From Galdieria partita (Eukaryota; Rhodophyta; Bangiophyceae; Galdieriales; Galdieriaceae), in NCBI GenBank assembly GCA_025991245.1, contig BQMJ01000070.1, positions 1 through 64,000 of the forward strand: a stretch of DNA of 64,000 bases, written 5' to 3'. Below, piece after piece: positions 1 through 34,496 of this stretch (position 1 is the first letter of the stretch; each line of letters begins with the position of its first letter). The notes under the pieces are model-generated. The model saw only the letters and a list, made by a program, of their open reading frames with translations, was not told the DNA's origin and ran no database searches. The translations under genes and the position numbers were made by a program.

Positions 1-515
1 AACCCTAAATAAACCCTAAATAAACCCTAAATAAACCCTAATAAACCCTAAATAAACCCTAATAAACCCTAATAAACCCTAATAAACCCTAATAAACCCT
101 AATAAACCCAATAAACCCTAATAAACCCTAATAAACCCTAATAAACCCTAAATAAACCCTAATAAACCCTAATAAACCCTAATAAACCCTAATAAACCCT
201 AATAAACCCTAATAAACCCTAATAAACCCTAATAAACCCTAATAAACCCTAATAAACCCTAAATAAACCCTAATAAACCCTAAATAAACCCTAATAAACC
301 CTAATAAACCCTAATAAACCCTAATAAACCCTAATAAACCCTAATAAACCCTAATAAACCCTAAATAAACCCTAAATAAACCCTAATAAACCCTAATAAA
401 CCCTAATAAACCCTAATAAACCCTAATAAACCCTAATAAACCCTAATAAACCCTAATAAACCCTAATAAACCCTAATAAACCCTAATAAACCCTAATAAA
501 CCCTAATAAACCCTA
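1..515. repeat. Telomere repeat array (C-rich strand)
   Basis: Tandem AATAAACCCT (10 nt) units with scattered AAATAAACCCT (11 nt) units run from base 1. The G-strand form is AGGGTTTATT or AGGGTTTATTT, which looks like the plant-type TTTAGGG core with an AT extension. A C-rich strand reading 5' to 3' at the left end is the orientation expected of a left chromosome end. One unit near base 110 lacks the CT. The array is abrupt at base 1, so the true terminus is probably only sampled. Confidence 0.95.
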
Positions 516-660
516 ATAGAACCCTAATAGAACCCAATAAACCCTAATAGAACATAATAGAACCTAATAAACCCTAATAGAACCTAATAGAACATAATAG
601 AACCTAATAAACCCTAATAGAACCTAATAGAACATAATAGAACCTAATAGATCCTAGTAC
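516..660. repeat. Degenerate telomere variants with 40-bp higher-order pattern
   Basis: Variant 10-mers replace the canonical unit: AATAGAACCT, AATAGAACAT and AATAAACCCT. From about 545 to 650 they recur in a fixed order of four 10-mers (AATAAACCCT, AATAGAACCT, AATAGAACAT, AATAGAACCT), a 40-bp super-unit seen between two and three times. This is typical of proximal telomere sequence evolving by unequal exchange rather than by telomerase. Confidence 0.85.
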
Positions 661-3113
661 AACCTCAGTAAAACCTCAGTAAAGCCTGAATAAGAAAGAA
701 AAATGCATGTTCTTTTCTGTCAGGCTACGTGTATTTTAGAATTCACTGCTTTTTCTTCGTGAATGCATCAGAGAAGAAAGTCCTTCAATTCTACCAATCG
801 ATCTACGTTGGCTTCTAGTATATTTAATTAGGTCACATTTTTTATAATGTTTGTTTTAATGTCCATATGACTTCTGTTTTGTGCTTCTTTTTCTTTGTGT
901 ATTTCAGTTTCATTGCGGAAACACTGGGAAGCCTAAAGAAAGTGTTTACATTTTATCTTTAAGTAATGATCGTTCTTTTTCTAGCCATATTCCTGTTGTG
1001 TTGGGGCGATTGAAAATTTTAAGCGGTTTGCTTCAATGAAAATCTTTTTTGGTTGTTTTTAGCCTTATTTCCTTTCTCTTTTATTGTCCAAGTTGTAAAG
1101 CAAATTATTAAAGCTTTAATTTCATTTTTTTTTGTTCTTAGTTAAGGCCCTTTATAATGTGTAGAGAATTCTCGAGTTTTCATATAATAGATGAATTTTC
1201 CTTTATATATCCTGTTTATTTTTTTCTATAGTATGTGACTTTGGATTCAAACAGTACTAAACCTTAATAAAACTTAATTGAGCCTGATAAAAAGAGTTCC
1301 TATTGCCCTGTATCAGACCATCTGCATTTGAACAATTATCACTGTCTATGTCATATTTATTTGTTAAAGAAAAAAGCGATGTTTTTCTATGAAGGCCTTT
1401 ACTTTTGCTGTTAGTCTCTTAAAATTAGTCAATTTTAATTGATGCTTCTTGTTTTGCTAGTGGTAAAATGACGTGCCTTGTGAGCCAGTTTTTTGTATGT
1501 TTGTATTTGTTGTTCATTAAGGGAAGACCTGGAAATTTAAGGAAAATTTTAAGATGGGATTTTTAATTCAAAGCTCTTTTGAGTTGAAGCATTTTTCTGC
1601 TGCTTTGCAATAATTCGAATTTGTGAGGCATTTAGAAATTGTGAACATTTTTCTTAAGTAGCTCCTTTTTGTTGTCATTTGCAATATTACCGACGTTCTT
1701 GATTGACCTAGTGGAACAGTAAATTTATATGCTTTCACATTATTTTTTTTTGCTTTGTCTGATATTTGTGCCAAATCTATTTGGCGTAAGATCCTTTTGG
1801 TTTCTGATATTGGATGAATTTACCTTGAAGCACCCTGTTAATATCTTCCAATTGTATTTGAAAGTTTAGTTAAATATGCTTATTTAACTAGAAATTATAC
1901 CCTAATGAAGCCTAGAAAACCAAAATAAAGAAAAATTCTTATTGCTTCTAGCCTGGGCATACCTAATTTTTCAATCCATTGCGCTCTAGTTGTCTCAAAG
2001 TAGGAGTACGCAAAGTAAATTGGTTGTGTCTGGTTTCTTATTTATGCTTTTTGTCAAAGAATAGCTACGTATTTTTTATTTTTTATGCTCATTGTGCTAC
2101 TGACCAAGTTTGGTTTCCTGTCAGCTACATTTTGTTTAAGATTCTTTTGGATTGGAAACTAGTGTTAGTTGTTACATTCCTCGTTTAATTCAGATTTTTT
2201 GAAGTTCACAATTTTCTGCTTCTTTTGCATTGTTTTGAGATTTCAAGTCTTTCGTTTAAATGGTACTCTTCTGGCTAGTTTAGTCTAAAAAACGAGCAAT
2301 GTACGCGAAGAAGTCGTCAAAACAGTTGAGCAATCTGTCACAATTAACATTTTCCTCTCTTTATTCTTTGTTGTTTTCGTTATTGCATTCAAGGGTTGTC
2401 CCTTCTTTTTACTACTTTTCTATAATTAAAAAAACATTTTTCTTCTGTATTTCATTGTCATATAGCAAATGAACTCCCTTTCATTAAAAGCATTGTATTT
2501 TTTTTCTACGAGTCGATTGCTGTAACGTGTTAACTTCGTTTCACACGGTCGACAAATATCTACCCCACGAGAACAGGTTCAATGTATTGATGATGTAAAC
2601 AACATGTGGTATATGAAAATTCTTCAATATATCTTCTTCTTTCTATTTCTCTGATTTCTCATTCTATGGTTTGCTCGTAAAATTGGTATCTGTATTGTTT
2701 CTTTAATAAACTTTGGATACAAGTGTAGCCCTTATAATGCAAAGATTGCCTATTCCCCTTTGATACATTGCATAAATGCCTCTTCAATACCTTTTCATAG
2801 TGCCATTATGATAGAACTGAAACTAAAATGCTGAAATCTTTTTTTTTAGTGTTGCCATTAATTTTAAAAATTATTGAGTTTTTTATGCAATAATGCTACA
2901 GTAATGTTTCTCGCAAATTTGTCTTTTCATATAGGTTTCTATGGGTATTACTTGGTAACGATAATGATATTTCTTTATTGCCTTTTCTTATTAAATTCGT
3001 TGATATCTCCAGTGCACATATAATGAAAAACTTCACGATTTGGATAGTTTCGAAACTTTTGTTTCGATCGTTTTACCAAGACTTTCATAGTTGAACCTTA
3101 TGAGAATCGTCTT
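650..3113. repeat. Subtelomeric repeat unit, copy 1
   Basis: This stretch aligns over its length with 3114-5607. Shared landmarks include the AAAAATGCATG region near 697 (against ~3188), GGGCATACCTA near 1955 (against ~4441), the CACACGGTCGACAAATATCT stretch near 2542 (against ~5027) and the GTTTTACCAAGAC stretch near 3070 (against ~5560). The copies differ by many substitutions and small indels, so the duplication is not recent. Short telomere-like patches occur near 1255-1290 and 1900-1915. The short open frames here lack family resemblance and are not supported as genes. Confidence 0.8.
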
Positions 3114-5607
3114 TATTAAACCCTAATAGTAAACCAAAAGTAGACCGTATAGTAAACCCTCAGTAGAACCTCAATAAGACAAAAAAAATGCATGCTTCCT
3201 TCTGCCAGGCTGCACTTATTTTGCAAGTCACTCATTTTTTTTCATTAGTGCATTAGAGAAGCAGCTTAATCCTATCAAGCTTTTTACCCTTGCTTCTAGT
3301 AGAATCAATTATGTCGCAAATTTTTTAGGAGTATTCTAAAGATGACGATGTGACTTCTTTTATGAGCTTATTTCGGTTCTGCTTCTATTTGAGTTTTACT
3401 GCGAGAATGCTTCAAACGTAAAGAGAATGTCTACATTTTACTCGTAAATATTGGTCGCCCTTATTTGTTTAGGCATTTTTCTGTTGTTTTGTGTTGATTG
3501 AAAAGTTTAAGCGGTTTGCTCAAATGGAAACTTTTTTGTAGTAACTGTTGTTTTGACATTGTCGTCTTTCATTGACCAAGGTGTGAAGCAATTTTTAAAG
3601 CTTTGATTACATATCAGTTTTCTTTGTTCTTCGTTGAACCCTTATATGTTGTGTAAAGGATACTCGAACTTTCTTATAATGGATGAATGTGTCTTTATTT
3701 ATCCTACTAATATTTTTCTATAGTATGTGACTTTGGATAAAAATAGTAATAAACCTTAATAAAACTTAATAAACCCTGATAAGAAAGTTCCCATTGCCCT
3801 GTACCAAAACATCCGCATTTGAAATTTATTAGGTTCTCTGTCATCACAATGCATTAGAGGAAGAAAGTGAATTGGTTCCACCAAAACCTTTACTTTTGCT
3901 TTTAGTCTGGTGAAAATAATTATTCTCAAACTGTGCTGCTTGTTTTGCCAGTGATGAAATGACTTGCCTTGTGAGCTATCTTTGTGTACGTTTGTATTTT
4001 TTGTTTATTACTGGAAAACCTGGGAATTTACTGAAAATTTTAAGATGCTATTTTTTAAAGCCTTTTTAAGGAATTTCTCTGTTGCTTCGCAGTAATTCGA
4101 AATTCTGAGCTTTTAGAAATTGTGAGCATTTTTCTTCAATGGTTCCTTTTTCTTGTTGTTAGTATTATTACCGTTCGTTCTTGATTGACCGAGTGGCACA
4201 GTAAATTTATGGATTTTTTTCATTATGATATTTTTCTTTGTCTGGTATTTGTGCCGAATCTATTTGGTTTAAGATCCTTTTGGTTTATTATATTGGATGA
4301 ATTTACCTTGATTCACCCTTTTAATATCTTTTTACAGTATTTGAACGTTTTGGTAAATATACATATTCAACTTGAAATTATACTCTAATCAAGCCTAATA
4401 AATCCAAAACGAGAAAAAAATGCTTATAGTTTTTAGCCAGGGCATACCTAGTTTTTCAATTTATTGCGCTCTAGTAGTCTCAAAGTAGGAGTGGGCAGAG
4501 TAAATTGTTTATGTCTGGTTTCTTATTTTTTGCTAAAGAATAGTTACGTATTGTTTCGTTTTTTATGCTCGTTGTGCTACTGACCAAGTCTTTTTTCCTT
4601 TCAGCTACACTTTGTTCAAGCTTTTTTTGGATTGGAAACTAGACTTAGTTGTTACATTCTTTGTTTTGTTCAAATTTTTTTTGGAGTTCACAAATCTTTG
4701 CTTCTTTTGTATTGTTCCGAGAATTTAAGTGTTTCGTTTAAATGGTACCCTTCTGGTGTCATAAGTGTAAGGCGCGAGCAATGTACGTGAACAAGTCGTT
4801 GCAGCAGTAGAGCAATCTGACACTATTAACATTTTCATTTCTTTGTTTTTTGCTGCGTTCATTGTTGTCTTCAAGGATTGTCCTCCTTTTTTCTACTTTT
4901 ACTCCAATGAGAAAAAAAATATTTTTCTTCTGTATTTTAATGTCATATAGTTACTAAATTCCCTTTCATCAAAACTATTGTATTTTTTCTCTCTGAGCAG
5001 TTTGCTGTAACTTTTTTACTTTGTTTCACACGGTCGACAAATATCTGCAGGACGAGAACAGGTACTGATGATGTGAGAAACATGTAGTATATGGAAATTC
5101 TTCAATGTATTCTCAAGTTTCTATTTCTCAAAATTCTTATTATACTATGGCTTTCTTATAGAATTGGTATTTGCATTGTTTTTTTTGATAAACTTTAGAA
5201 ACAAGTGTAGCCCTTACAATGCAAAGATTGCCTATTCCCCTTTGATGTATTGCATAAACTTCTCTTCAATACCTTTCCATGATGCCAATGTAATAGAACT
5301 GAAACTGAACTGCTGTAATCTTTTTCTTCTTTCTTTTAATATTGTCATAAATTTTATAAATTCTTGAACTTTTTTATGCATTAATGGCACAGTAATGTTT
5401 CTCATAAATTTCTCTTTTCATATAGGTTTGTATGGGTACTACTTAGTAACGATATTGATATTTCTTTATTGATGCTTCTTATTAAGATCGTTGCTATCTT
5501 CAGTGCATACATAATAATAAGAGTTTAATTTAGATAGTTTCGAAACTTCTGTTTCGATCGTTTTACCAAGACATTTATGGTTGAACCTTACCCTATGAAA
5601 ATCGTCT
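3114..5607. repeat. Subtelomeric repeat unit, copy 2
   Basis: Second tandem copy of the ~2.47 kb unit. It opens with a telomere-like patch (ATTAAACCCTAATAG and variants, about 3114-3170) and has further telomere-like patches near 3745-3780 and 4383-4405, at the same relative positions as in copy 1. It ends at ~5607, after which similarity to copy 1 stops. No gene is supportable inside it. Confidence 0.8.
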
Positions 5608-8600
5608 TGAAAAATCTGTCTTAGATAGCAAAAATTTAAGTCGCGTAATTTGGTCACTTTGTTGTATTCTACGTTGCAGTGTTATTGAAAATGTAAACAT
5701 TTGGTAGGTAGTTTTTACTTTCTGACGGCCTAAAGGTACTGCTTGTTTCATTCTGTGAGTACCCTTAACTTGAAATATAGTGTCGCTATACATATTTAGC
5801 AAAAAGTATACAATGCTTATGGTATTCTTGGATTTTCAAAAGCAAAACATTGTGTTTTGGTAAACTTTTCGATCCGCCTTTTATCTATTCTCAACAATGC
5901 CAAACTGAGAATCAATTTGTTGGTTTTTCAGTGTGATTATTACTATGCCCTAGATTCTTGCTCAATTGTCGTTTTCTAAGAATGATTGAATTAGGAGATT
6001 CAATCGTCGTATAGACACTTAGTTCACAATTTAAAAAATTCAGCTTTTTGCTCCATTTTCTTCTAGTACTACTGTCTGTTTTCCTTTTGTGTCTTATGTC
6101 TTATAACCCTAATAATGTGTAATGAAGCTTTTCTAGGTTCTATTTCACCTATGTACTAAAATGTTCGAGGTGAGAATACGTTGATTTTTTGTATATGCAG
6201 ATTTGTTCTACTATTTTTTTAACTAAATTTTGCATTATGACCTACTGTTTACCTCTGAGAACAACTAGAAATATTGATGCCCATAAAGGACAAATAATGT
6301 ATTGAAATTCTTCAATTTTTTCACTTGGGCCGACCTCCTTAAATTCTTTCTTTTTCTATAGACTCTATTTGACACGATATTTTTATCGCTCTTCTAATGA
6401 ACCCTAGATAATTTTAGAAAAACAGTTCAACTTTTTTTTATTTGAAAAGACACGATTTTTCATTCCTTTTTCTAAAAGGCATGTGTCTTTCTCAATTCAT
6501 TAGGTCGTCATAAAAGAATCTAATAGAGTATAAAAGTGAGCGGTTTATTTTAGGTTACATACTTGTCAAATTGTGTCAACTTTTTTGAGGATTTTTGTGA
6601 TTTTGCTAATTTATCTCGAGTGACAAAGTAATTCTTCCTTCGAAATTTTTTGGAATTACCCCACAGTTGTATATGCATTGCATGAAAACGATATCCAATG
6701 ATTCCATTTCTTTCATTTTTATTGAAATTTTTAATTTTTCTTTAGGAGCTGAGCAATTTGGTTGTGAATTTGATATACTGCGAAATGTAAATCTGGTAAT
6801 CTTTACAGCTACCGCTTTGCATGAATTTATTTTACCGAAGTCGTTTTCGATATCGAAAAGTGACAATTTTTTTGAGGAGTATAACCTTGTAACTGTTGGT
6901 TGTTACTATGTGGCATCTTTTATCAGACACCTTTTTTTGTAAAAACTATTTTTGCTTTCTTATGGTAACTGGATACACCTGTTCCATTTTATGTTCTCGC
7001 ATTATGTTATACTCGAATGGCAGTGTTGATACATATAAGGAAGATAAAGCAAGCTACATTTTTGCCATAAAAAAGTCTCAAATGAATGAAATAGTTAGCA
7101 ATCTAGCCACAAAGATTCAATGTTGTTCTATAGCAACTTGGATTATGTCAGTTTGACTATGCTTCGAATGACAGCTTGTAGAGAAACATATCTCTCAAGA
7201 GCACTTTTCCTCCATGAGTTTGTTGTATTTTTATTCTTGTTCTTTGAAATCATCCTGTTGTTTTTGTTTCTCTCCTTAAACATATAAAATGTCTTTTAAG
7301 TATTTCAATTTGAAAAAAGTACTGGATTGTTTCCGACTGAGAATATAGCAGGTTTTTCGTTGAACATGCATTTTGGACACTTCTTCTTACTATCTTTTGC
7401 ATTGTCGACTAATGTCCGTTGAAGAAAACAATTAGAGATATACTTATTCAATAAAGACAAGTAGTATATGAGAATTCTTCGACTTTCTAGAGATTCTATC
7501 TCTCTCGCAGTCTCTCTTTTCTCTATGGGTTATTTTAAAAATCCCTATCTGTATCGTTCATTTGTTAGTCTATAAGTGTACGAAAGAAAGAAAAGTTACA
7601 AAGGTCTATAAAAAAAAAAAGAATTGTCTAGTGTCCTCTGACATCCGTCATGCGCTTTCCTTCAATGAATTATGTTCTTGTGAAACCAATGTTATGAAGC
7701 AAAGAATTATTTAATGATACACATATTTTGACTTACCTTGTTGCTTTCATATTCAGTAGTTTCGAAGTTTTTTTTTTTGTTTGTTGATCCATTCGTGTCA
7801 ATTCAATTTCGCCTATGAATCTTCATCCCCTAACATACTCGTGCACTTGTACCGCTTTTGACTGAGGAAACGTTTTCATTTGTTTAGAGCTAACATAACT
7901 CATTATTTACTTGAAATGTTGCTAAACTAAATCGGCTCCGTTTTCTGAAACATCTTTGCTCGGAATCTACCAAATCACAGTCATTCTCAATTCATTGACA
8001 GTAGTTTTAAGAGTACAACCTTTTATCGCCTTGTGTTTCTTTGTGGTGTCTTATTTATCATTTAGCCATCCGATAATGCAGTTTTTTACGTTTTCTGATA
8101 CATTTATATTCCTTATTTCATTCTGTGAGTATCTTCGTACACTAATCTGCTACTTTGGTGATGGTATACATATTGAACCAAAAGTAAGCAATACCATACA
8201 TATGCCATAAGAAAGCCTCCAACTGGAAGAAACAGTTAACAGTAACAACATAAATGTTCCATCATGTCTACTGTTCTTCATCTTTCTTCTTGCTTTATGT
8301 CTAGCTGGTCAATACTTTGCGCGATAACTATTAGAAGATTATATCACTGCGTGGCATTTTTCCTTATTGGTCATATTGTACTTTCTCTCTTTTTCTCTAC
8401 AATCAATTTGTTCTTCTTTGTTTTCTTAGATTTAAATACTTTTTTAGTCTTTTAGTATGCATTGCATAATATTTTGGTTTCTTCCTAGCTCTTTTCTCTA
8501 GAATTTTCTATTTGAAACTCTTTGTTTGGGAAGTCCTCCAAAATAAATTCTATTTCTTCCATTATTACCATAAGAAATTTCAATTGCGCTTTTGCTTTTC

Positions 8601-11200
8601 ATACTTTTCTTGTGTTTAAATCGGTACTTGGAGAATAGAAATTAAATGAATGCCTTCTTCTGGGGTACATATTCATTTTTACGATTTAATAGGAAGCAAG
8701 AGCAAGATTGAGACTAGATGTCTGTTTTAGTGACACAACTTGAAATACTGTGACACTTGCGAAGTTGCAGGAAAAGCTCTACTTGTAATTATTCTGGTGT
8801 ATTTGCAAAGTGGCTCAAGAATTTTCTCCTGTATCAAGTTTGGTAGAATGCACCATAGAGATTTTGAATCAATCGTTGGTCTTTCCTCAACTTTTCCAGA
8901 GGACAATGGAATATGAAAGAAGAGCTTGGTAAGTTCGATTCTTTTACTCATCTATTTATGTTGACTTCGACCACTACTTATTTTTATATTTACAAATAAA
9001 TAGCACTCTAGCCATCTTTTAGAGAGTTGGAGCTTACTCTTGGCTAATCGTGAAAAAGTTCATATGAAACAAGAAAACACAAATTAGCATATACAAACCA
9101 TTTTCTACAACTTTTTTCCACAAATATCTGCTTTAAAAAAATTTCGAAAAATTTTTGAATTTTGTCGAGAATTGGCTACGTAGAACAAAACACAGCCCAT
9201 GTCATGACAGCCAAAGGGCAATAGAGGAAAGTGAGGGGAAATGAATCAATGAACCCTCATGTGAACTCAAATAGCTTCTTACTGGATTTCCCAACGACCC
9301 AGCTTGGATTCTAATTCAGCCTAGTAAAATCTACAATGCAACAAGTTTTTCATTTGCAACACAATCTACTAAGGTTCTATATATTATTTGCTAACATAGT
9401 TTTCACAGATATCACTTTCTAATTCAGTCTCTTGTAAAGAATAGAGGTTTCTTTGTAAAATTGCATTTCTTCTTGTTGAGTGTGTATGGTTTTTGAATGT
9501 GTAGTTTTTTCCAGGTAGTACTTTAGGTGTTTTTTATGTTAATCTTTTTCCTCTTTCACATCACAGTGTAATTGGAAATGATTTCAGCTTGTGCATTATA
9601 AACAACTTTATTGTTTTAATGTATTTTATTCTGAATTTTTTGTATGGTCCGCCTTTATATGTTTTACTAATTGTTTTAATTCGCCACTGGGCTATATAAA
9701 ATTCGTAAACTTTTTCTTCTCCTAGACTTCCTGTAACTTAGAAATTTGATTGTGTCTGTCCTTGTTTTGGCTGGGTAGTTTGTTTTGAGCTAATATTGTT
9801 GTTGCCAGAAATTTTTGGTTTTCTTTTTCTCTTTTCAATTGAATATTCTATGTGGAACTCTCACAAGTACATGGTGTCTTCAATAAGTTTCGGTGATAAA
9901 TAAAGCTTCTCATGTCAATTGTCTTGCATCTCTATTTATTGTTTTGATTGATATTGGGTTGTTCTAAAGTTTTCTTTTAAACTCTGGTCTTAGAAGCATT
10001 TTTGTATAGTTGTTCTTCATAATAAAGTTTTTGTTATAAAGCGATGCGAGAACTTTCTTTTTTTGGCGTTGGGTGATAGCTCTACTGCATTGGCCCCAGC
10101 TCTGTCCAATTATGAATAATTCTGATGGGCTGATTGGTAAAACTTGAATGGTCGATTGTAGTCTTTGCCTTTTTTTAAGAATTTGCGTTGATTCTTTGAA
10201 GTCTCTCTGTTTACAGCTTTGTGACTCAAAGTGTCTAAACGTTGAGTTTCTCGTCTCTCCTGAATTGGGTTAAAGCATATCCAAATTGCCAAGATTCGAT
10301 TTCTTAGATATTATCAATTGTATTTTTCTTCTATAATGGTCTTTTTGGTACTGTGTATTGCAATTGGTGTTTGTCTTTCTTTCTTCGCTAAAAGTATTTC
10401 TCGTTTGTATATAAATGATAAGGTAGTTTGTCTATAAAGAAATTACGTGTCGTGTACATTTTTTATTATCAATTGAATAGAAAAAATTCCTTGCCTTTCA
10501 GACATTTTTATCATTATGACAATCCAAATGTTGGCTAGAGTTCTTCTTGTATAATTAACTAGTCACGAAATTAAGCGTATATTCATTCACGAACGCTAGA
10601 CTTCTATGAAAATAGAATTTTGGCAACCGTACCCACCAGTATGAAGATCGATCGTTCAAGTAAACAGGGCATCAAGAATAAAATATTCATGTCTTGCTCA
10701 ATTTTGCTTTGTAACATAGGAAGATCCTGGAATATCTTGCGCATATCTAGGAATGTTGCTCAGTAGAGTAATTTAATATGCTGAAAGAATCGCTGTGTCT
10801 AAAATGAGCAATATATTTATAAATTCGTGGACAGTTGTCAGTTTGTATACTTTGTGCTTGTCAGCCTTCTTATAGAATTATACGTTGTATAGTTGTTTGT
10901 GATTTCCCAATAGAAAGACAGGGCTATTTAAATGCCTACAGTAATACTATTCAAACAATATCCTTTCCAAAACTGTGTCGCACAAACTTTCAACTGCTAA
11001 GTATTTATAGACTTGAGCACAAAAGACTACGGTAGCTATTCCAAACATACACTATGCCGACGAGTTGCGAAGCCTCTCTTTTGTGAAAATTTTTCCCATC
11101 AGATGCTCCTTTTCTTACAAGTTTTGTTTCGAATTTGCATCCTTCAAGTGACCTCGTCAAGTAAGATTAGCAAACAACGACGTAAAGATGCTTCAAAGTG
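5608..11200. other. AT-rich subtelomeric DNA, no supportable gene
   Basis: T-rich on the plus strand, with only short open frames and no recognisable protein. Some pieces are old relatives of the flanking repeats: 7440-7570 resembles 2590-2730 (the AGTATATGA/GAATTCTTC and ATCTGTAT regions), and about 5870-6110 resembles about 14390-14640 (a region around GAATGATTGAATT and ACTACTGTCT). It looks like a graveyard of diverged subtelomeric repeats. I see no RNA gene or mobile-element structure. Confidence 0.6.
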
Positions 11201-11219
11201 GGTGTACAAACTCTGTTCA

Positions 11220-11680
11220 CGTCCGTTTTCGAAACAGCAACTCACAGTTGAACTGCGCAGTTCAGTGGCCACGAGCCAACCTCCCCTCTCCACTTGGACA
11301 ATAGATTCTCAATAGACAAAAACTGACAATGACAGAAATCGGTTTTGTGAAGAACCGAAGAGAATCAACCCAGAATATATTCCGAATGTTACAAAAGATC
11401 TTGGTGATTGTTCCACGAGGGAGAGTCTTCAACAACTGTTTACAGGACAACAGTTAGCTGTACAATTCAGTTCAAAGACCAAGTTCCATTGAAAGACTAT
11501 ATTGGGACAAAGATTCAGACTCAAAGACTATTTGGAGCCTTTGTGCCCACTGGTGCCTCAGCACTCCGAAGGAACAAAGTCTTCAAACAGACCAGAAACT
11601 AAAGATCAACAATTCTCTCGAACAGAACCTACGTTGCATTCGACAAGAACTTAAGCGACTTTGAGGTTCAAGCCAAGTCG
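11220..11680 (+). repeat. Diverged copy 1 of the NTPase-associated upstream module
   Basis: Shares ordered landmarks with 13300-13760, 15790-16120 and 20560-20900: a CTCTCC(A)CTTGGA-like stretch, AAACTGAC, a tract ending in GGAGCCT followed by a TTT/CATTACC-type stretch, then a GATCAACA(A/G)TTCTC stretch. Divergence is high. No NTPase reading frame follows it before the next copy. Open frames of 60-100 codons here read across the repeat and are not credible as genes. Confidence 0.6.
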
Positions 11681-13299
11681 TTGGCAGGAAACGACCAAAA
11701 CAAACTGGGCCTTGGTTGGTATTTCAAAAAGTGCGAAATCATAAAACTTCAAAGTTTTTTTCGTACTAAAAAGTTCTCCTCTCAATTCAACTAGTTATAT
11801 TTTCATAAAAAGGAACAATTTTATCCACTTCAAAACAGGTGGTAACAAAGCAACTACAGCCACAGTTGAGCAAAACAATCACAAAAGGAAGATTGGGCAA
11901 AGGGACGTTGAAGAGCTCTTCGAGTACCGTCAAAAGTGCACACGCCATATAGTTTCATATGTACCTAGTGAAAACTTTCCAAGGGAACCTTCCACTCAAA
12001 GGTTTACCTAGAATACTATTGATTCTCTAACGTTGCATTATTTAAAGAGAACCGTTGTGTTAGAATGATCGTTGACATACCGCTGAGAGTAAAGCCCGCC
12101 ATTGTATAGTGAGATAAACTCACCTTTGTTATTTACCTTGAAGATTTACTGGCTTCAAGTTGATTTGGAGAACATTGAGCTCTAGTCGATAGGAATCATT
12201 TCAAGAAAGTATAATCTGCCACTTTCAACAAGAAGAGCGTGTTTCCCACGACTTGGAACGAGTGGGTGTGCAGTCGCCAAGTTGTCATAGAGAAATTTCG
12301 TCAAGTAGAGTGAACACTTGTGCTGATCAATGTCTAGCTGAACTGTTTGCAACTTGGAGGACTGTGAGTGTTGTGTTACTAGTATCAGGGACTTTTTAGA
12401 CTTTTGCAGATTTGAGTTTATACACTCTGGTCGAGTGTTTCAGTTAACAACAAAACGTTTAAGTACACGTTGGAAGTGACACATGTATATAATTTGTATT
12501 TTGCCTACAAGTATGTTGATAAAGAATCCAGTCGAGTTTCTCAATTTGCTTGAATACATAGACCAAGTGTCGCATATTCTATTTTGTATAGTTCAATTGC
12601 GAAAATAAAGAATCGATTGTTGACTCTTTCTATTTTGTATAAAAGCTATATATGAAAACTGTCCATAATGGCATAGCGTCACGACTCACATAGTAAGTGT
12701 CGTTGCAAGATCCTTGCCTTGTTTGTCCCTTGACAACAAAAGTCACCAACACAGATCCTCGGCACACTTCCTCCAATATATCTAAAACAGCGCAAAGTTT
12801 CAGACAGTCTATGTTTCACAAAACTCAACAATCTACCACGGAAAATTCTAGAAACACTAGAGCAGTCCAAACTTGAAAAACATAACCAAGTTGTCAAGGG
12901 TGGCTTCCCAAGACAACAATTTGTCTGTGCTAGTAAAGCCATAAAACAAAGAGCAAAAAGGAAAGAAAGCAGCAACTCCTAAATTTTTCAACCATACCCA
13001 GAGTACTTGAACACGCTATGAAGCTAGTACCGGAACTCACTCTCTAGTTCCCTCAGAGTTTCTTGGATAAACAACACAGACGCATCTACAAAAGTTCTAT
13101 TAAAACTCTGCTCTCATAAAAAAAATTTCAAAGTTAGCTAGTTCCTACATATATTCTAAAAAGCAGTGACAAATCTCAAAGTTGGATAGGTTGTACAATT
13201 TTGAAACATATCAACTGGTCAAGCACTCAAACAGTCATAAAGCTTTATCTAATTCCCAGTCAACTAGCTCATATATTACAACTTTCGTGATTTCTTCAA
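11681..13299. other. Intergenic subtelomeric DNA, no supportable gene
   Basis: This stretch is somewhat less T-rich than the region to its left. Parts near 12030-12110 weakly resemble the 16320-16400 part of the upstream module (a GTTGTGTT...GATCGTTGACA neighbourhood), suggesting it is an older extension of module copy 1. A 98-codon minus-strand frame at 12679-12975 has a signal-peptide-like hydrophobic start but no ATG at its beginning and no recognisable family, so it is not called. Confidence 0.45.
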
Positions 13300-13760
13300 G
13301 TCGGTCAACGGAAGGTTGAAAGCTGCCATCATCACCTCGTCTATTCCAACCAAAGCAATTCGCTCCTCTCTCCTCTCCAGTTAGTTGGGTGAGACTCGAA
13401 ATGGTCATAAACCGACAAATAAAGGAACTGGTTGTTTGAAAAACACAAGAATCAACACAGAATATACTTCGAGTGCTACAAAAGACCTTGATGAGTGTGA
13501 CACAAAAGAGGATTCATAGCAGTAATTCACAAGACTTTACTTTGTAGTATACTTGGACTTGAAAAACCAAGTTACAATACAAGACTATATAGGGAACAGG
13601 GGTTCAAACTTGAAAATAATTGGGAGCTTTTTACGCCGACTTTTCTTTTTATAGCACTCTACATAGTAAAAAACGCCTTTAAGCTTACCAGAAAATATAG
13701 AGCAACAGTTTTCAACAAAGATCCAAGTTGAGGTACGTTCAACATGAACTTGGACTCAAG
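13300..13760 (+). repeat. Diverged copy 2 of the NTPase-associated upstream module
   Basis: Carries the same ordered landmarks as the other copies: CTCCTCTCTCCTCTCC, AAACCGACAAATAAAG (compare AAACCGACGAATTAAG in the 20.6 kb copy), AACACAGAATA, a GGGAGCTTTTTACGCCGA stretch matching the GGAGCCTCTTTACCTAGG region, and a GAGCAACAGTTTTC stretch. No recognisable NTPase frame follows before 15.5 kb. Confidence 0.6.
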
Positions 13761-15500
13761 ACAAGTATTTTTCAAGCTTTGTGGAACTCAAATTTCAAGT
13801 CTTTGAAAGTTTACAACCAATAATAGCAGGTCTTGGATGGCAAAGTTTGGTCTTGAAGAGTTTCACGTTGGAACCCACTGTTTGACGCTTTAGGCATCTT
13901 TGAACAAATTTATCGTTTTGCTTTGAGGCAGTATCATTCCATTGAAGCGGAATTATTGTACTTTTTCCACTGAATCTTGAATCTTTACAATGCTACTCTC
14001 CAACAAAATGAATTGAGTAAATATGTAGCTTCTTTTTTTCTTTTATCAAGTACTTGAATAGTTCTTGTGATTCTAAACTCATCTGTCTATGGTCCCAATT
14101 ATACAATACTTGTATTCATTTAGGCAATTCTTTTCAGACGAATTGGACTCGAAACCCAATTCTTCTTTATAAGGATGTTTCAAATCCATTTTACATAGAA
14201 AAACGTTTAAAATTGTCGATTGCCAGATTCATTCGAGTTGGATCATTTTTGTAAGCTCCAAGTATACCATATTATTATTTCTATTGATGATACTAAAATG
14301 GCTATGATGAAGATTATGATGGCTGTTACGCTGGTAGTCTTCTTGAATTCCCAAAAATCAGCTTTGCGTTTTGGTAGAAAGTTTTTGAGTCTCTTTTTAT
14401 CTATTCCCAACAGGGTTGAACTTAGAATCACTTTGTCGGCTTCTCAATATGTACTCTTATAACTTTCTTGTTCAATTTTTATTTTTTAAGAATAATTGAA
14501 TTGAGAGAATCATTCGTCAGATAGGCTTTTTTGTTCATATATTAGAAAGCAGTTGATTTTTTGTTCCTGTTTTTTCTATTACTACTGTCTTTCTCCCTTC
14601 TGTGTTTAGACATAAAGTTGGACTATCGTTTGAATCCAATTATTACTTAGTGGCTTCTCCTTGTATATTATGATGATCTCTATTGTGCAATCTCTTGGCC
14701 TTTTTTGTTGTTACTTTTTGCAACTTTTCACTATTCGAGGAATAAAAATGAATGTATTCTCTTTCTGTTCCATATTCTCTTACACACTGATAAAGTTTCA
14801 AAGTTTTGCTAAAAAAAAGTTTCAAGACGAGAAGAGTTTCAATGACACGTGAAATAGAATGAAAAATAACAGTTAAATGTTTACCTTTTGAGTATACAAA
14901 GTCCTAAAAACCAACAACTTTCTTTAGAATTCTTGATCTTCCGAGCAAAATTCATCAATCAATAGAATAATTCAGGAAATTCTCTTTGAGTAGTAGCTGA
15001 TTGAAAGAGTTATATTCCCCTTTCCTTCACCATGCATATTTCTTTGCAAACAATCTATAGATATCGTGAATACGGTAAAAGAACTGAAATGAAAAGATAG
15101 AGCATGTATGATTCACCGAACTCAATGTGTTGGCAAATTTGGATTCAAACTATTTCCCTAAGCAGCTTTAGAATGTGGAATATTCATCAAATATGATATA
15201 TCTTTGAAGCAATCTTTTTTATTTCATCTCATTCACTCAATCCTTTACTAGACAAATTGTTTCGAATACAATATTTTTCAAGATCTCTGCACTTTGTCAA
15301 TTTATCGTAGTGTTCAAGGTTTATTCTCGTAGCGAATATTTCTTCCTTTGCTTTAGTTTTCAAAATACTTTGGATATTTATCAAACGATCTATTTAGTTT
15401 GCTTTTATGTTTTCGCCAATATAGATAAAATAAATCTTTCCATAAGTAAGTATTTACAACTATCTCAGGTCAAAAGGAGTCGACAATGTTACTATTCCAG
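13761..15500. other. AT-rich subtelomeric DNA, no supportable gene
   Basis: Contains a segment (about 14390-14640) related to about 5870-6110. Several short frames of 60-95 codons exist on both strands, but none shows a domain or exon-intron structure that I can defend. Confidence 0.45.
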
Positions 15501-15523: not shown

Positions 15524-15748
15524 TTATCTGTAGAACAAAGAATGTTCAAAGCTACGGTAATTCTTTCCAAAAAGCTCCCACTTTCCATTCGTAGCAAAGC
15601 TTCTCCAGACATTCGTTTCTTCTTTCCAATTCTGGGCTTTGAATTGACCAAAGATGAACTCTTGGTCGTTTGCACTCCAAGTGCTATCCTCAGGTAAAGG
15701 CAATGAGGAAACAAGCAAAAATGGCACAAAGACTTTTTCTACGATCAA
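15524..15748 (-). other. Possible Myb/trihelix-like gene fragment inside the duplicated module
   Basis: A 74-codon minus-strand frame contains a spaced-tryptophan pattern (TWSANDQEF, then NWKEE, then VWRSFA) followed by FGKNYRSFEH. The pattern is reminiscent of SANT/Myb or trihelix DNA-binding domains. No ATG begins the frame, since its first codon is a non-ATG codon. The related copy at 20200-20511 keeps the first part (VEKVF, PFLLVSSL, LPEDST) and then loses the pattern. It could be a decaying gene transcribed away from the NTPase, or chance. Confidence is low. Confidence 0.2.
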
Positions 15749-16683
15749 ATTGAGTCTAATTGTGCTTTTTGCAGAGCAGGAGTAGCTTTTGAAGTTCGCA
15801 GCCCAGTTTTCAAGGGCGGTCTCTTCTCTCCATTTGGAAAATCAGACCTTTACTAGACATAAACTGACTAACAAGAAACCGGCAGGGTGTTCGATCAACA
15901 CAGAATCAATTTTCAATGTAGATAAGGACCTCGATGACTGAAGTAAAAACGAGGATTCTTAACAACATCACAAGACATCTACAAGTGACAAGTATTCAAA
16001 CTCAAAGACAACTAGGAGCCTCATTACCTAGGCGATTTTTCACGATATTACGCATATTAAATACCTTCATAGAGGCCAAAACATAAGGATCAACAGTTCT
16101 CAAAGTGGTTCTGAGCTGCAAAGTACATAAGTTGGGACCGAAAAGGTACCTTTGTATGCCACATAAAACTCAAGGTTAAAGCCCATTCATTGAAGGCTAA
16201 GACCAAACGAATAAACGGTTTCGACAATACTCAAAAAGAGTCAAAAACTTCTATATGCAATTTTCAAAAGATTTCTTGTTAAAATTCGAACAAGGAAAAG
16301 TCTATAAGGAAACGTTACTTTAAATAGGGTATCAGTAAAGCTACTTAGCCATGAGTTCCACAACCACAACAATGAAACCGTTGCTATAAGCCAATACAGG
16401 TGTGCGTTGGTTATCTTTTGGAAGTTACAAACCATATAGTTTCTTAGCGAAAGGCTAGCCAAGTTTTTTAGAAAGCTTAATTGACAAAGAGCTTAAGCGA
16501 AATAGTGCTAAAAAAACTGAAAAGTGAAAACTAAATATATTTCATAAAATAAAACATATACGTGGTAGTTTATGATTCTTCCAATACCAAAGCAAGTTTA
16601 TTTTTAGTGCTATTTATCTTTTTATAATCGAGAAATTCTTTGAGCAACGCTCTCGTATATTACCGATTTTCCTTTTGGCGACG
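15540..16683 (+). promoter_or_regulatory. Duplicated upstream module of the NTPase gene (copy 3, includes its promoter)
   Basis: About 1.1 kb directly upstream of the 888-residue NTPase aligns closely with 20340-21430, which sits directly upstream of the second NTPase copy. Long shared stretches include GAGGAAACAAGCAAAAATGG, ACTAAGACCAAACGAATAAA (around 16200; the other copy reads GACTAAGACCAAACG near 20960), GGGTATCAGTAAAGCTACTT and ATAAAACATA. The similarity runs to within a few dozen bases of the start codon, so it includes the 5' UTR and promoter. Conservation of a noncoding leader with its gene argues that leader and gene were duplicated as one unit. Confidence 0.75.
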
Positions 16684-19350
16684 ATGACGAGTTTGGGTGG
16701 AAGGAATCGTGTTCGCTATTCAGGGATAGAATATCCTCTTATCAACCGAGAATCAGCGATATTACAAGTTTTGGAAGCTTTTGAATCTTCCTTTGTTTTC
16801 GATGAAAGAGGTATACCTCAAACTCCTCGACCTCACATAAGCTACGCTCCGCAAATGTATGGGAGCGGCAAAAGCGCCTTCGGGGAGAACTTCCGAAGGT
16901 TCCTTTCCATCAACAAAGAACGTATTTTGCGTTATGTAGATACTAGGAAGAAGTTTCCTGGCTTTGCAATGGGGGAGAATGTAGGAGAACGAGCTCTAGA
17001 CGCACTGTTAAACGAGACTTTATATGTTGTTTTGAATCTTCTTAAAGTGCCGAAGGGAACACTTTTTCGAGATACGCTTTTGGAGTGGATAAGCAAGAAA
17101 GCTCTTTCCCAGTTTCCAAACAGTGCAGATTTACTTTCTCAAGTTCTTTCTTATATTGGAAGTCCAGAAGAATGGTTTGAGAAACTCTTGCAAGTCACCA
17201 AGAAACGTTATTTATATCTGTTTATTGATGAAATTGGAGCTTTAGAAGCAGACGAGTTCAAAATGTTTCAGGATTTGATGGTTTCACAAGGAGCAAATCG
17301 AGTGCACAACGTGTATCGTGCCTTCTTTAGAGTTTTATCAAAGGTTGTAAGTGAACCTTTTGTCATTTGTATTGTTGCGGGGAGATCGGATTGTATAATT
17401 AGTAGAGAAGAGGATGCAATGCCTTCCCGAATAGCGTTAAATTTTCTTTGGTTGGATCCTTTTTCAGAAGCAACTGTCAAGTACTTTATACAGAATGTTA
17501 CTTGTCATAATGTACCTATTCTAAAAGTATTGTTTCCGAGTCATCCTGAGGGACATGATTGGTTCTTCAAACAAGTATATGATTATACAGGTGGTGTTCC
17601 TTACTATGTTGTTCATGTTTTAAATGAATTGGGAAAGGCATGTGAACGTTGGAATAGTTTATGTGATCTTTCAGAGGATGAAATGAAAGAGGAAATGGAA
17701 AGAATTGCTCCGACTACTTCTCTCGTAGTAACTCTTTCTCGTATGACACCCGAATCAATGATTGTTTTTTCTTCTATGCTTCTTGCGAGTATTTTAGAAT
17801 TTCGTATTCCAAAGAGAGAGACTCTATTTGGTGGTTTAGGAACAGGAAGCCATTCTGAATATGTTTTGGATATTGCCAATCATTTTGGTTTTTATTATGT
17901 GAGTTGCTCGAGAGATGAACAAGACGAAGCAAGCAGGATACCTGTTGAAGACAGCGATGAAACATATTTCAAGTTGGTTTTTCCAAAGATTGTACTAAAG
18001 CATATTCAATCGCGATATCGGAATATTCCTCCTATTCGTTTTGTTTGTAGTTTATTTTCATCGATCAGTCGATTTGATTCACCTTCGAGCCGTGGTTTCA
18101 AATTTGAAATTATATTTACTCTTATTCTTTATGTTCGATGGTGTTTCTGTTCCGAACTAGGAGAATTGAGTATATTTCGACATAGTTTTGTCGACCATAT
18201 ATCAATACAATCTGCTGAAGCCATTGGCAGCTTAAAAGTGGATCCTATTCCCAATTATGTTCCAGCATTTAGTTCGACAGTGAGTGGAATCCATAGTGCT
18301 AGAGAAGCAACTTACCATGTCACTGCTTGGAAACCATTTTTTGAAAAGTATTTATCAAAAGATGGAATATTTGTTCCTATTCGACAAAATTCCAATGGAC
18401 CTGATGTTCTTATTCGAGTCACAGATATGAAAGACAATTCTTTCCTTGCTATTCAAGGTGAATCTTCTTCAGAGCAAACACCTATGGAGACTGAAACCAC
18501 GAAGAAGAGAGTATATTTGATAGGTGCTGCATTGAAATGTTTTCAGTTGTCAAGTTCTGGTGTTGGACGTTCAATGATTAAGTCAGAAGTTGCTAAATTT
18601 TTACATCCAGTGGCGTCACAGCTTGAATTGGAACAGAATAATTTAACAGCCATTCAGTTGATTGTAAGCAACAAGTATACTGAAGAAGTTTCCAAACAAT
18701 TTAGGAATAATCAGAATTGGATATTGAATAGTGGAGTTTATTATGAAGACGACAATAATAATATTGTTTACAGTTCTATCAACTCTGAGATACAACCACA
18801 GAATATACGAAAAGAATGGTTGAGGATACCTCCTCATTGTCAAGTTGTAGTATGTTCAACTACATCTTTGCGAAACTTTTTAGGTTGCAAGGCTAGTGAA
18901 GATCTTGAAAGAGTATTTGGAGACAATGCTGGATGGTTGGAACAACTGAAACCACTTTATGATTTGTTGAGCAATTCGTTTGTAGACTTATTAAGACGTA
19001 TTCCATTTGAAGAATCTGAAAGGAATAGTGGAAGGATGGAAAGAACAAATACTCGTCCAAGTATGGATATGGATGTGATGCAAGTGGAAGAAACGAGAGG
19101 AGAATCAACTATTTCTGCTCCGAGCTCAGTGCAAGTTTCTTTTGACTGGATGAACTTTTTGAAAGTATATTGTCATTTAACTGAGGAAGAAGCAACTCAA
19201 TGTTACGAATGTCTATGCAAGTTTTCGGAGCGAGACATGGGAGTCATAGACTCAACCATATTAGAGCAAATGGGTATTGATGATTCCTTGTTGCAATTCA
19301 AAGTTGTTGCTGGTATGAGAACTTATATAAAAGATAGGCAAAGTACCTGA
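16684..19350 (+). CDS. Subtelomeric archaeal-type P-loop NTPase with possible nuclease-like core and C-terminal SAM-like domain
   Basis: 888 residues without introns; the first in-frame ATG is at 16684. Seen: Walker A MYGSGKSAF (GSGKS at residues 60-64); Walker B YLFIDEIG (~178-185), followed by an acidic residue; a sensor-like VAGRS (~231-235) after a hydrophobic strand; and a TGGVP motif (~302-306), as found C-terminal to the NTPase core in archaeal ATPase/STAND proteins. Around residue 572 GPDVLIRV is followed by FLAIQGES (~588-594), which resembles the layout of a PD-(D/E)XK fold, but the last position is not a clear Lys. Residues ~821-885 look like a SAM domain (DWMNFL, LEQMGI). Role unknown. 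Galdieria is known to carry an expanded archaeal-type ATPase family attributed to gene transfer, and the lack of introns fits that. Crinkler/RHS-type NTPase-nuclease proteins are the alternative comparison. A paralogue follows at 21.5 kb. Confidence 0.8.
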   Translation: MTSLGGRNRVRYSGIEYPLINRESAILQVLEAFESSFVFDERGIPQTPRPHISYAPQMYGSGKSAFGENFRRFLSINKERILRYVDTRKKFPGFAMGENVGERALDALLNETLYVVLNLLKVPKGTLFRDTLLEWISKKALSQFPNSADLLSQVLSYIGSPEEWFEKLLQVTKKRYLYLFIDEIGALEADEFKMFQDLMVSQGANRVHNVYRAFFRVLSKVVSEPFVICIVAGRSDCIISREEDAMPSRIALNFLWLDPFSEATVKYFIQNVTCHNVPILKVLFPSHPEGHDWFFKQVYDYTGGVPYYVVHVLNELGKACERWNSLCDLSEDEMKEEMERIAPTTSLVVTLSRMTPESMIVFSSMLLASILEFRIPKRETLFGGLGTGSHSEYVLDIANHFGFYYVSCSRDEQDEASRIPVEDSDETYFKLVFPKIVLKHIQSRYRNIPPIRFVCSLFSSISRFDSPSSRGFKFEIIFTLILYVRWCFCSELGELSIFRHSFVDHISIQSAEAIGSLKVDPIPNYVPAFSSTVSGIHSAREATYHVTAWKPFFEKYLSKDGIFVPIRQNSNGPDVLIRVTDMKDNSFLAIQGESSSEQTPMETETTKKRVYLIGAALKCFQLSSSGVGRSMIKSEVAKFLHPVASQLELEQNNLTAIQLIVSNKYTEEVSKQFRNNQNWILNSGVYYEDDNNNIVYSSINSEIQPQNIRKEWLRIPPHCQVVVCSTTSLRNFLGCKASEDLERVFGDNAGWLEQLKPLYDLLSNSFVDLLRRIPFEESERNSGRMERTNTRPSMDMDVMQVEETRGESTISAPSSVQVSFDWMNFLKVYCHLTEEEATQCYECLCKFSERDMGVIDSTILEQMGIDDSLLQFKVVAGMRTYIKDRQST

Positions 19351-20339: not shown

Positions 20340-21430
20340 ATCCTCTGCCCTGACAAAGCTTCTCCAGATAAATCGTTTCTTTTATCCAATTCAGGCTTTG
20401 AATTAACCAAAAGTTAACTCGTGGTCTTTCCTGTGCACTACAAGTGCTATCCTCCGGTAAACGCAATGAGGAAACAAGCAAAAATGGTGCAAAGACTTTT
20501 TCTACGGTCAATTCGGGTCCAATTGTGCTTTTTCAGAGCAGGATTAGTTTTTAAATTCCGCAGCTCAGTTGTCAAGGATGGTCTCTTCTCTCCATTTGGA
20601 AAAAGAGACCTTTAATAGACACAAACCGACGAATTAAGAGACTTGCAATGTGTTAGATGAACACGAGTTAACTTCGACGACTGCAAAAGACCTTGACAAC
20701 TGGAGTAGAAACGAGGATTCTCAACAACATTAAGAGGCATCTACCAGGGACAAGTATTCAAACTAAACGACAAGTAGGAGCCTCTTTACCTAGGCTGTTT
20801 TTCTCGATATTACACATATGAAATACCTTCATACAGACCAAGACATAAGGATCAACAGTTCTCAGAAAGGTTCTAAGCTGTAGAGTACATAGATTGGGAC
20901 TGAAAATGTACTATTTTAAGCCACATAAAACTCAAGGTTAAAGCCCAGTCATTAAAGACTAAGACCAAACGAATAAACGGTCTCGAGAATATTCAAACGG
21001 AATCGAAAACCTCTATATGCAATTTTCAAAAATTTTCTTGTTGAAACTCAAACAAGAAAAATTCTATAGAGAAACTTTATTTTTACTTTAAAAAGGGTAT
21101 CAGTAAAGCTACTTAGCCATTGGTTCTGCAACCAGAACAATGAAACGATTGTGAGAAGCCAATACAGATGTGCTTGGGTGTCCTTGGAAGTTACAAACCA
21201 AATAGTTTCTTAGCAAAAAGTTAACCAAGTTTTCAGAGAGCTTTATTGACAAATAGCCTAAGCCAAAATAGTGTTAAATAAAGCTGAAAAGTGAAAAATT
21301 AAATGGATTTCATAAATAAAACATACACGAGGTAGTTTATGACTCTTACAATACTCAAACAAGTTTATTTTTGGGGCTACTTATTAATATAATAAAGAAA
21401 TTCTTTAGAGCCTAGTGAAGGTTTCATTTT
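20340..21430 (+). promoter_or_regulatory. Duplicated upstream module of the second NTPase copy (copy 4)
   Basis: Close relative of 15540-16683, co-linear to just before the NTPase-like reading frame at 21.46 kb. Shared blocks include GAGGAAACAAGCAAAAATGG (20468-20487), TCTTCTCTCCATTTGGAAAA, CAACAGTTCTCA, CTCAAGGTTAAAGCCCA, GGGTATCAGTAAAGCTACTT and the AAGAAATTCTTT stretch near the start. The two copies are more alike to each other than either is to the 11.2 and 13.3 kb copies. Confidence 0.75.
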
Positions 21431-21458: not shown

Positions 21459-22484
21459 GTGGGAAGCTATGAGTTTGGTTCTGTGGTAGACCGCGAGGAA
21501 GTCGTTTATCTTGTTACAACGAACTTTACGAACTTCATAACAATCGAAAGCAACTTAAGTCAAACAAGCAGCCTCAGTTACCGTTTGACAATTCCATTCG
21601 CGCCTCATATGTTTGGATCCGGTAAAACTACTTTTTGTATTAACTATTTGGAGTTAATAGGGAGATTTAGTGAAACTGCTCTTGCATCTTTTGCTTCGGA
21701 CTCTTCCATGGAAGAGTTCTCGAACAAGTTGAATGATGCAGCTCTCCTTTACGTGAATTCGAGAGATCTTAAACCCACTTATCCCCTTGAGGAAAAGGAA
21801 AGCCTGAAGTGAGCTCTTTAATATGTATTATACCAATGTACTAGGATTGGTTTGTCACTTACGAGCTTTCCAGACGAATATGAAAAATTCTCTACTCTTC
21901 CACAATTTTTACTTCCCGAGCTGCGGAAGATCTTGGGTATTTCTTCTGAACAGTTTCTTCTTGTAGCGTTTGATGAAGTTGGTGCTCTAGACGAAAGTTA
22001 CGACGAATTTTTTTTCGAAAGGACCCCATATAGTAAAGTTTTTCCATACAACGACTTCTTTAATATTGTTCTTGAGTTGTGTAACGAAGACAATCTATTC
22101 GTTATTGTTGTTGGGAAAAGCAAGGGTTTAAGAGTTAAGAATTCTGTAGCTTTGGGACCAAAGGTGTTACTACATTTTATTTCGTTATCACCTTTGGACA
22201 CTTCCAACATCGTTGAAAGTAATCTCAATGGACAGGTTCAGCGTCGTATTTGTGATATTCTATGCAGTTCTTCGTTTTCAGTAAATGAATTGGCAGAGGC
22301 ACTGTTGGAATGTACCGGTGGAGTTCCTGGTTTGCTTACTTGTGCAGTGAATATACTTTTGACTTGTGCACAAACAAGAGGACAGCCTTTGATACTGAAA
22401 GAAGAATGCTCATCGTGTATGAATGAGGATGACTTGCAAAGAATTTGTGACGCTACTATCTCGGCAGACTCTTCACTCTAACCC
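21459..22484 (+). pseudogene. Shorter, degenerate paralogue of the NTPase
   Basis: Two same-strand coding blocks correspond in order to the N-terminal third of the 16.7 kb NTPase. They show Walker A FGSGKTTF, a Walker B-like LLVAFDEVG, a VVGKS sensor-like stretch and CTGGVPG, matching the TGGVP motif. The region matching residues beyond ~335 of the longer protein is absent: there is no nuclease-like core and no SAM domain. The block boundary near 21.81-21.85 kb has splice-like ends, so a short intron is possible. The 5' end does not start on a clear ATG. This could be a decaying copy or a short NTPase-only protein; decay is more likely. Confidence 0.65.
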
Positions 22485-33414: not shown

Positions 33415-34496
33415 TCAACTTGCAATGCGAGTAAGCCTAATACTTTCGAGTTCTTCTTCTACTTGCTCTCCGGCATAAATAGGTGGGTACCAATCCGCTT
33501 GAATACCACGAGAAAAATCGCCAACAGGTTGAAGAACTCGATCGGGCTCCACATGAACATACATAGTAGGGTGAACAGCCCACAAAGACTCATTTCTTTC
33601 TTTTCTAATTTTGACAGCTGTACAAGTATTCTCCGAAACAACAATCTCATAGTATCCTTTTTTAATATATCCTCCAGTAAGATAGTCCAATTGAGCACCA
33701 GCTTGAACAAGTAAACAACCTTTAGGTATCTTACAGGGTATACGTTCGCCTTCAGAAGTCCATAAATAAAGTCCAGGAAAACGTGAACGACCATGAATAG
33801 TTAGAAAACTAATATCATAGTGAAAACCTGCGAGAACTGTTCCAGGCTTAGTTCCATACAAATTAAGGTCAGAACCAGTAGGTGATAACAAGTGTGTACC
33901 AAACCGAATAAGATTGGGTAGAGTTGAAGACTGCAAACCTAAACCAATACTCAACATCTCTGAAACTGTAAAAACAGAGTCCAACAGCTTTTGACCCCAA
34001 CTATCCATAACTTGTCTCCACTGTGGAAAGTTTTCTGGAATAACAGGTTCTGCTAATAACTCTGGAAACTTGGTATATTCTCTTCTAGCTCCAATTCTCC
34101 AATGGAACCGCCACTTCTTATCAGGGCCATCGAAAGGAGTAGGCATGTTGTCCGCAGTAAGTAAAGTTAACTCCTCGGACACATCTCTTGGAAATTCTGT
34201 TAGCTCTGGAGTAATCCCCACCTAAAACCACTGTCATAATGCATCAAAATAGCTCCTTTTTCTACTACCTGGTAGTGCAGTTCAACTCTGGAGTCGTTCA
34301 TTTTCAATTCTCTAGGCTGTTCAAAATATCGTTCCATCAGGTCCAAATATTTCTCGTTTTCCCTCTCATCAAGTCTCCCGTCTCTTATTACAACTGCTCC
34401 ATATGTATGAAAAGCGTCGGCTAATGAAGAGCAATCGTCGAAACGGTTTCCAGAGTTTTCTAAAAACTTGTCCAAAGAAAACACAGGCAGCTTCAT
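33415..34496 (-). CDS. 2-oxoglutarate/Fe(II) dioxygenase paralogue lacking the distal histidine (possible pseudoenzyme)
   Basis: Exon 1 34269-34496, intron 34222-34268 (47 nt), exon 2 33415-34221; 344 residues. It belongs to the isopenicillin N synthase-like family: an N-terminal YGAVVIRD stretch and the strongly conserved KWRFHWRIGARRE, GFHYDISFLTIHGRSRFPGL and GCLLVQAGAQLDYLTGG blocks. The HxD pair (HYD) is present. The expected distal ligand, which is His in the paralogue's GYHEV, is Tyr here (GYYEI). The later RxS motif (RVS in the paralogue) reads AVH. Both the iron site and the 2-oxoglutarate-binding pair are therefore altered. The central 491 bp are almost identical to the paralogue at 37.3-37.8 kb, which points to gene conversion. 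Confidence 0.85.
33653..34143. repeat. Near-identical inverted repeat arm A (dioxygenase core)
   Basis: Reverse complement of 37305-37795. I compared the segments line by line and found 491 positions with two mismatches, three bases apart (plus-copy positions 37343 and 37346). The 449 bp of 33653-34101 match perfectly. Outside the tract the coding sequences diverge sharply, including exon 1. Confidence 0.9.

Follow-up and report, generated by a model that had tools for sequence, protein, structure and literature searches.

The 64,000-nucleotide stretch of DNA analysed here (the window) is a Galdieria chromosome end, as identified by its telomere unit and its GC content. It opens with a telomere array whose repeat unit is that of Galdieria partita, a species with the telomere repeat CCCTAA(A)TAAA and an intron-rich genome of 37.6% GC (PMC13353863), and the GC content of the window (~0.37) agrees with this value. 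The ATG of a gene encoding an 888-aa protein with NTPase motifs lies 16.7 kb from the end of the sequence that is formed by the telomere array (Table 1), and Galdieria subtelomeres are described as spanning 20–30 kb (PMC9812998). The subtelomeric setting that a preliminary description had claimed for this gene is borne out by the array and by the presence of subtelomeric repeats. The window also contains a divergent NTPase paralogue, ~2.1 kb downstream of the gene, and repeated blocks of upstream sequence (5′ blocks).

The 888-aa ORF is a genuine coding gene of host-like character. The ORF is intact and as originally described. A run of 888 open codons would arise by chance at the local composition with a probability of ~7e-30, and only in this frame does codon usage score on a par with the conserved host genes nearby. 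The further claim that it is intronless among intron-rich neighbours proves to be a weak mark, since single-ORF genes of 401–918 aa share the 64-kb window, with products of 918 aa (WD40), 577 aa (sugar transporter), 468 aa (GTPase), and 401 aa (phosphatase). Intronlessness is thus not distinctive, and was rejected as a sign of horizontal origin.

Table 1. Positions in the window of the telomere array, the NTPase genes, the regions of the 888-aa protein, and the 5′ blocks
Feature	Position	Strand	Remarks
Telomere array, 10–11-nt unit AACCCTAATA / AACCCTAAATA (= CCCTAA(A)TAAA)	1..649		Repeat unit matches Galdieria partita (PMC13353863)
Divergent 5′-block copy	11136..11958	+	nhmmer E 2.7e-30; no detectable NTPase gene downstream
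Divergent partial 5′-block copy	13367..13818	+	nhmmer E 2.6e-23; no detectable NTPase gene downstream
5′ block A, ~1.05 kb, no coding sequence seen	15595..16645	+	Immediately precedes the 888-aa gene; 82.6% identity with block B
888-aa NTPase gene, single ORF	16684..19350	+	Uninterrupted from ATG at 16684 to stop at 19350
NTPase core, residues ~19–339	16738..17700	+	(N/D)RE start motif, GSGKS, FIDEIG, TGGVP; motifs kept in paralogue
Residues ~340–459, place of a winged-helix domain	17701..18060	+	Inferred by position alone; no profile match
Possible degenerate PD-(D/E)XK-like region, residues ~461–789	18064..19050	+	Loose motif only; GPDV 572, FLAIQGE 587
SAM-like five-helix bundle (predicted), residues ~820–888	19141..19347	+	AlphaFold2 single-sequence model and Foldseek
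5′ block B	20354..21411	+	Directly upstream of the paralogue
Divergent NTPase paralogue, probably a pseudogene	21459..22478	+	24–25% aa identity; frameshifted after the start region, with no frame open past 22478

Domain architecture of the 888-aa protein

The P-loop module named in the preliminary description is present, with the Walker A motif GSGKS at residues 60–64, the Walker B motif FIDEIG at residues 180–185, and TGGVP at residues 302–306, and it is kept in the divergent paralogue. The marks of STAND NTPases, namely Walker A, an acidic Walker B, and a GxP-type motif after the core, are found in both the 888-aa protein and the paralogue, and these motifs, together with their retention in the second copy, support a putative NTPase core resembling that of STAND NTPases or archaeal ATPases. 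STAND and archaeal ATPase profiles (e.g., PF01637 and NACHT) gave no match to the NTPase fragment at E-values up to 10, none of the Pfam archaeal ATPase, NACHT, and AAA models matches the 888-aa protein, and scans of the whole protein or its fragments with Pfam, NCBIfam, PADLOC, and PHROGs profiles returned nothing significant. Two weak and partial matches, to a PHROG replication-initiation profile (E 0.007) and to Pfam PHD_5 (E 0.014), were treated as chance. Searches of PDB sequences with the whole protein, a profile of the NTPase pair, the middle region, and the tail gave no relevant match, and searches of IMG/VR, GTDB genomes, and phage and plasmid sequences found no relative in bacteria, archaea, phages, plasmids, or viruses. 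A DNA pattern like that of the P-loop occurs in two viral contigs, which were set aside as chance matches.

At the other end of the protein, the tail (residues 809–888) is modelled by single-sequence AlphaFold2 as five helices, the last of them long, with a mean pLDDT of 69. When this model was compared with the PDB by Foldseek, the best matches were mostly SAM domains (Sla1 SHD2, Odin, SLy1, tankyrase, and CNK/HYP) with TM values of ~0.45–0.72, but every E-value was at least 1, and the Pfam SAM_1 and SAM_2 models do not match the 888-aa protein. The C-terminus is predicted with moderate confidence to be SAM-like at the fold level, and the earlier assignment of a SAM-like domain holds to that extent.

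The nuclease proposed for the middle region fares less well. Both strings of the motif layout described earlier, GPDV at residue 572 and FLAIQGE at residue 587, are present, but they amount to one loose PD...QGE pattern in which the usual catalytic lysine is replaced by glutamate; the strict PD-(D/E)XK pattern has no match in the 888-aa protein, and no nuclease domain is detected at significance by Pfam, NCBIfam, PADLOC, PHROGs, or PDB sequence searches. The loose pattern appears in shuffled sequences at a rate of 0.5%, a figure that is no test, since the pattern was picked after the sequence had been seen. The single-sequence structure model of residues 461–888, from which a weak helix–strand–strand trend around GPDV/FLAIQGE can be read, has a pLDDT of 32 and is unusable. 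An active nuclease is unsupported, because the case comprises one loose motif without the catalytic lysine and an unusable structure prediction, and the middle domain is more likely to be a nucleic-acid-binding or degenerate REase-type fold. In the suggested combination of NTPase, nuclease, and oligomerisation domain, the NTPase is thus sustained by its motifs and by the paralogue and the SAM-like tail moderately so, whereas the nuclease is not sustained.

The paralogue and the 5′ blocks

The paralogue aligns with the 888-aa protein by tblastn at 24% identity over 319 positions (21483–22358, E 1.6e-9) and keeps the P-loop, DE, and TGGVP motifs. Its start-proximal codons align with those of the 888-aa gene, the NTPase homology then runs in a different frame, and the sequence farther downstream contains no C-terminal homology above that of shuffles. 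The paralogue is probably a pseudogene, with a sequencing error as the alternative explanation of its disruption. A candidate GT–AG intron of 36 nt is also seen in it at 21809–21844, which may alternatively represent two in-frame stops of a pseudogene; 36 nt is very short for a spliceosomal intron.

The clearest new point at this locus is that similar upstream blocks (82.6% identity) stand before NTPase genes that are barely alike. The identity between blocks A and B is ~0.8–0.9 over most of their length, and the identity between the two loci drops to ~0.4 within ~50 bp of the start codon, the aligned NTPase codons of the 888-aa gene and the paralogue being 42.9% identical at the nucleotide level. 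Since decay in a pseudogene does not outpace that of neutral DNA, the genes diverged earlier than the blocks did, and the two differ in their history. Four block copies occur in the first 21.5 kb, half of them with an NTPase gene directly behind, and no NTPase remnants were found behind the two divergent copies. The pattern suggests that the 5′ blocks may recombine independently of the genes. On its simplest reading, which is a lead from one chromosome end, the blocks would be the sites through which different ends exchange sequence by ectopic recombination or gene conversion.

The main rival to recombination, which we consider unlikely, is that the blocks go back to an old tandem duplication and have been kept alike by purifying selection on a regulatory region that they share. 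The blocks do end at the start codons, but their identity is fairly even over ~1 kb, far beyond the usual length of a promoter, and the remaining copies of the block have diverged much further. In addition, one gene of the pair appears to be dead, which should relax selection. A further idea, that gene and 5′ block together make up a mobile or selfish unit with insertion sites near telomeres and a protein that aids its own spread, is very unlikely. The recurrence of the block in front of two NTPase genes would fit such a unit, as would the targeted spreading of the family to every chromosome end that is described in PMC6629376, but a divergence that leaves 83% identity in the block and 43% in the gene is discordant, so that a recent joint spread of the two is excluded; moreover, no recombinase or polymerase is seen, and two of the blocks have no gene. 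Recombination through the blocks remains the preferred reading of their similarity.

Probable family membership and possible functions

The preliminary description had presented the gene as a candidate undescribed system, which is not right, because a family of more than 200 telomere-adjacent “archaeal STAND ATPases” has already been published for Galdieria, albeit without an explanation of its function (Schoenknecht et al. 2013; see also PMC6629376 and PMC9812998). According to PMC6629376 (Appendix 2), G. sulphuraria 074W carries 211 such ATPases, immediately beside every telomere; the count takes in several diverse orthogroups, those next to telomeres being OG0000000/1/3, and the same source reports no matches outside the species and disputes the archaeal, horizontal origin of the family. 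In PMC9812998, putative archaeal-derived ATPases are described as highly duplicated in Galdieria subtelomeres, and the family is linked, through a work cited there, to temperature adaptation. The 888-aa gene is a probable member of this family, to which it is assigned by genus, position, motifs, and the absence of outside matches. It resembles the published ATPases in its genus, its telomere-side position, its P-loop and GxP-type motif, its duplicated neighbourhood, and its lack of public relatives, the likeness being one of description; in contrast, a SAM-like tail and a possible REase-like middle region are not among the family features described in the portions of those papers drawn on here.

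Taken as a whole, the explanation that we regard as probable is that the 888-aa protein is a family member that acts as an NTP-driven switch and whose gene has spread by way of the 5′ blocks. In such a protein, the NTPase would be followed by a winged-helix-like region, the middle domain would act on or bind nucleic acid, and the SAM-like C-terminus would mediate self-association or the binding of a partner. Ectopic recombination or gene conversion at the conserved 5′ blocks would carry gene copies from one chromosome end to another, so that similarity would persist in the blocks despite wide differences between the coding regions.

Two other functions can be weighed against this switch. The protein could be of the Crinkler-RHS (CR) type, that is, an active NTPase-regulated nuclease of NTPase, HTH, and REase parts engaged in conflict with elements or intruders, the role that has been proposed for CR proteins; this is possible but doubtful. 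CR proteins are built in the order NTPase, HTH-like, and REase-like (PMC5289972), which would be the order here if the middle region has an REase fold, and the subtelomeric, multicopy, pseudogene-rich setting resembles that of the trypanosome RHS genes (PMC7563717). GPDVLIRV-x-FLAIQGE recalls a PD...(D/E/Q)xK hairpin, and the weak trend in the unusable model of the middle region falls at this place. However, the RHS and Crinkler Pfam models give no match at E-values up to 10, an N-terminal header domain (e.g., ubiquitin-like, as in secreted CR forms) is absent, with the NTPase beginning ~20 residues from the initiating methionine, and the replacement of the catalytic lysine leaves a motif with no strict match in a region whose fold is not established. 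The 888-aa protein is not filed as a CR protein because it lacks the profile match, the header, and the catalytic lysine, and it differs further in its extra SAM-like tail. A STAND-type immune or stress sensor, in which ATP binding would drive SAM-mediated oligomerisation in response to infection or heat, is a tentative possibility that falls well short of probable. The motif order (the RE start motif, P-loop, DE, and the GxP of TGGVP), combined with an assembly-type tail, is that of STAND NTPases with assembly domains, and the link to temperature adaptation cited in PMC9812998 would suit such a role. Against it, the 888-aa protein has no repeat-type sensor domain, no defence model matches it, and it differs from STAND NTPases in having its assembly domain at the C-terminus and no profile match. 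The NTP-driven switch is preferred to both.

A bolder and quite unlikely proposal is that the telomere-side ATPases of Galdieria are the algal counterpart of the trypanosome RHS and CR proteins, with an NTPase, a winged helix, an REase fold, and a SAM domain, and with coding sequences swapped among ends behind conserved 5′ blocks; if this were true, every chromosome end would keep a recombination-driven, diversifying ATPase locus. The telomere-side ATPases form a very large Galdieria gene family of disputed origin and function, and the domain reading (NTPase, SAM-like tail, and possible degenerate REase) bears on what they do, while the pattern of alike 5′ blocks and unlike genes is a checkable one for how they reach every chromosome end. 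Both questions become testable on existing genomes.

Other repeats and genes of the window

Close to the telomere, positions 690–5520 are occupied by tandem copies of a ~2.48-kb repeat that are 75–87% alike, and weaker stretches similar to it reach ~7.5 kb. A 270-base direct repeat (5822–6092 and 14337–14605, 71% identical) ties this telomere-proximal region to the stretch that precedes the 5′ block. Rfam models gave no match in the window. Farther in, an inverted duplication (33541–34223 and 37225–37907) is 89% identical over 685 bases; its copy on the + strand matches a 2OG-Fe(II) oxygenase model, and the ORF of the other copy is without a Pfam match. Past the subtelomere, the region 31530–63955 holds ordinary genes, which include those for sugar transporters, a SWEET-type transporter, a nucleoside hydrolase, a kinase, a Y-family polymerase, a YqeH-like GTPase, a carboxyltransferase, and SRAP.
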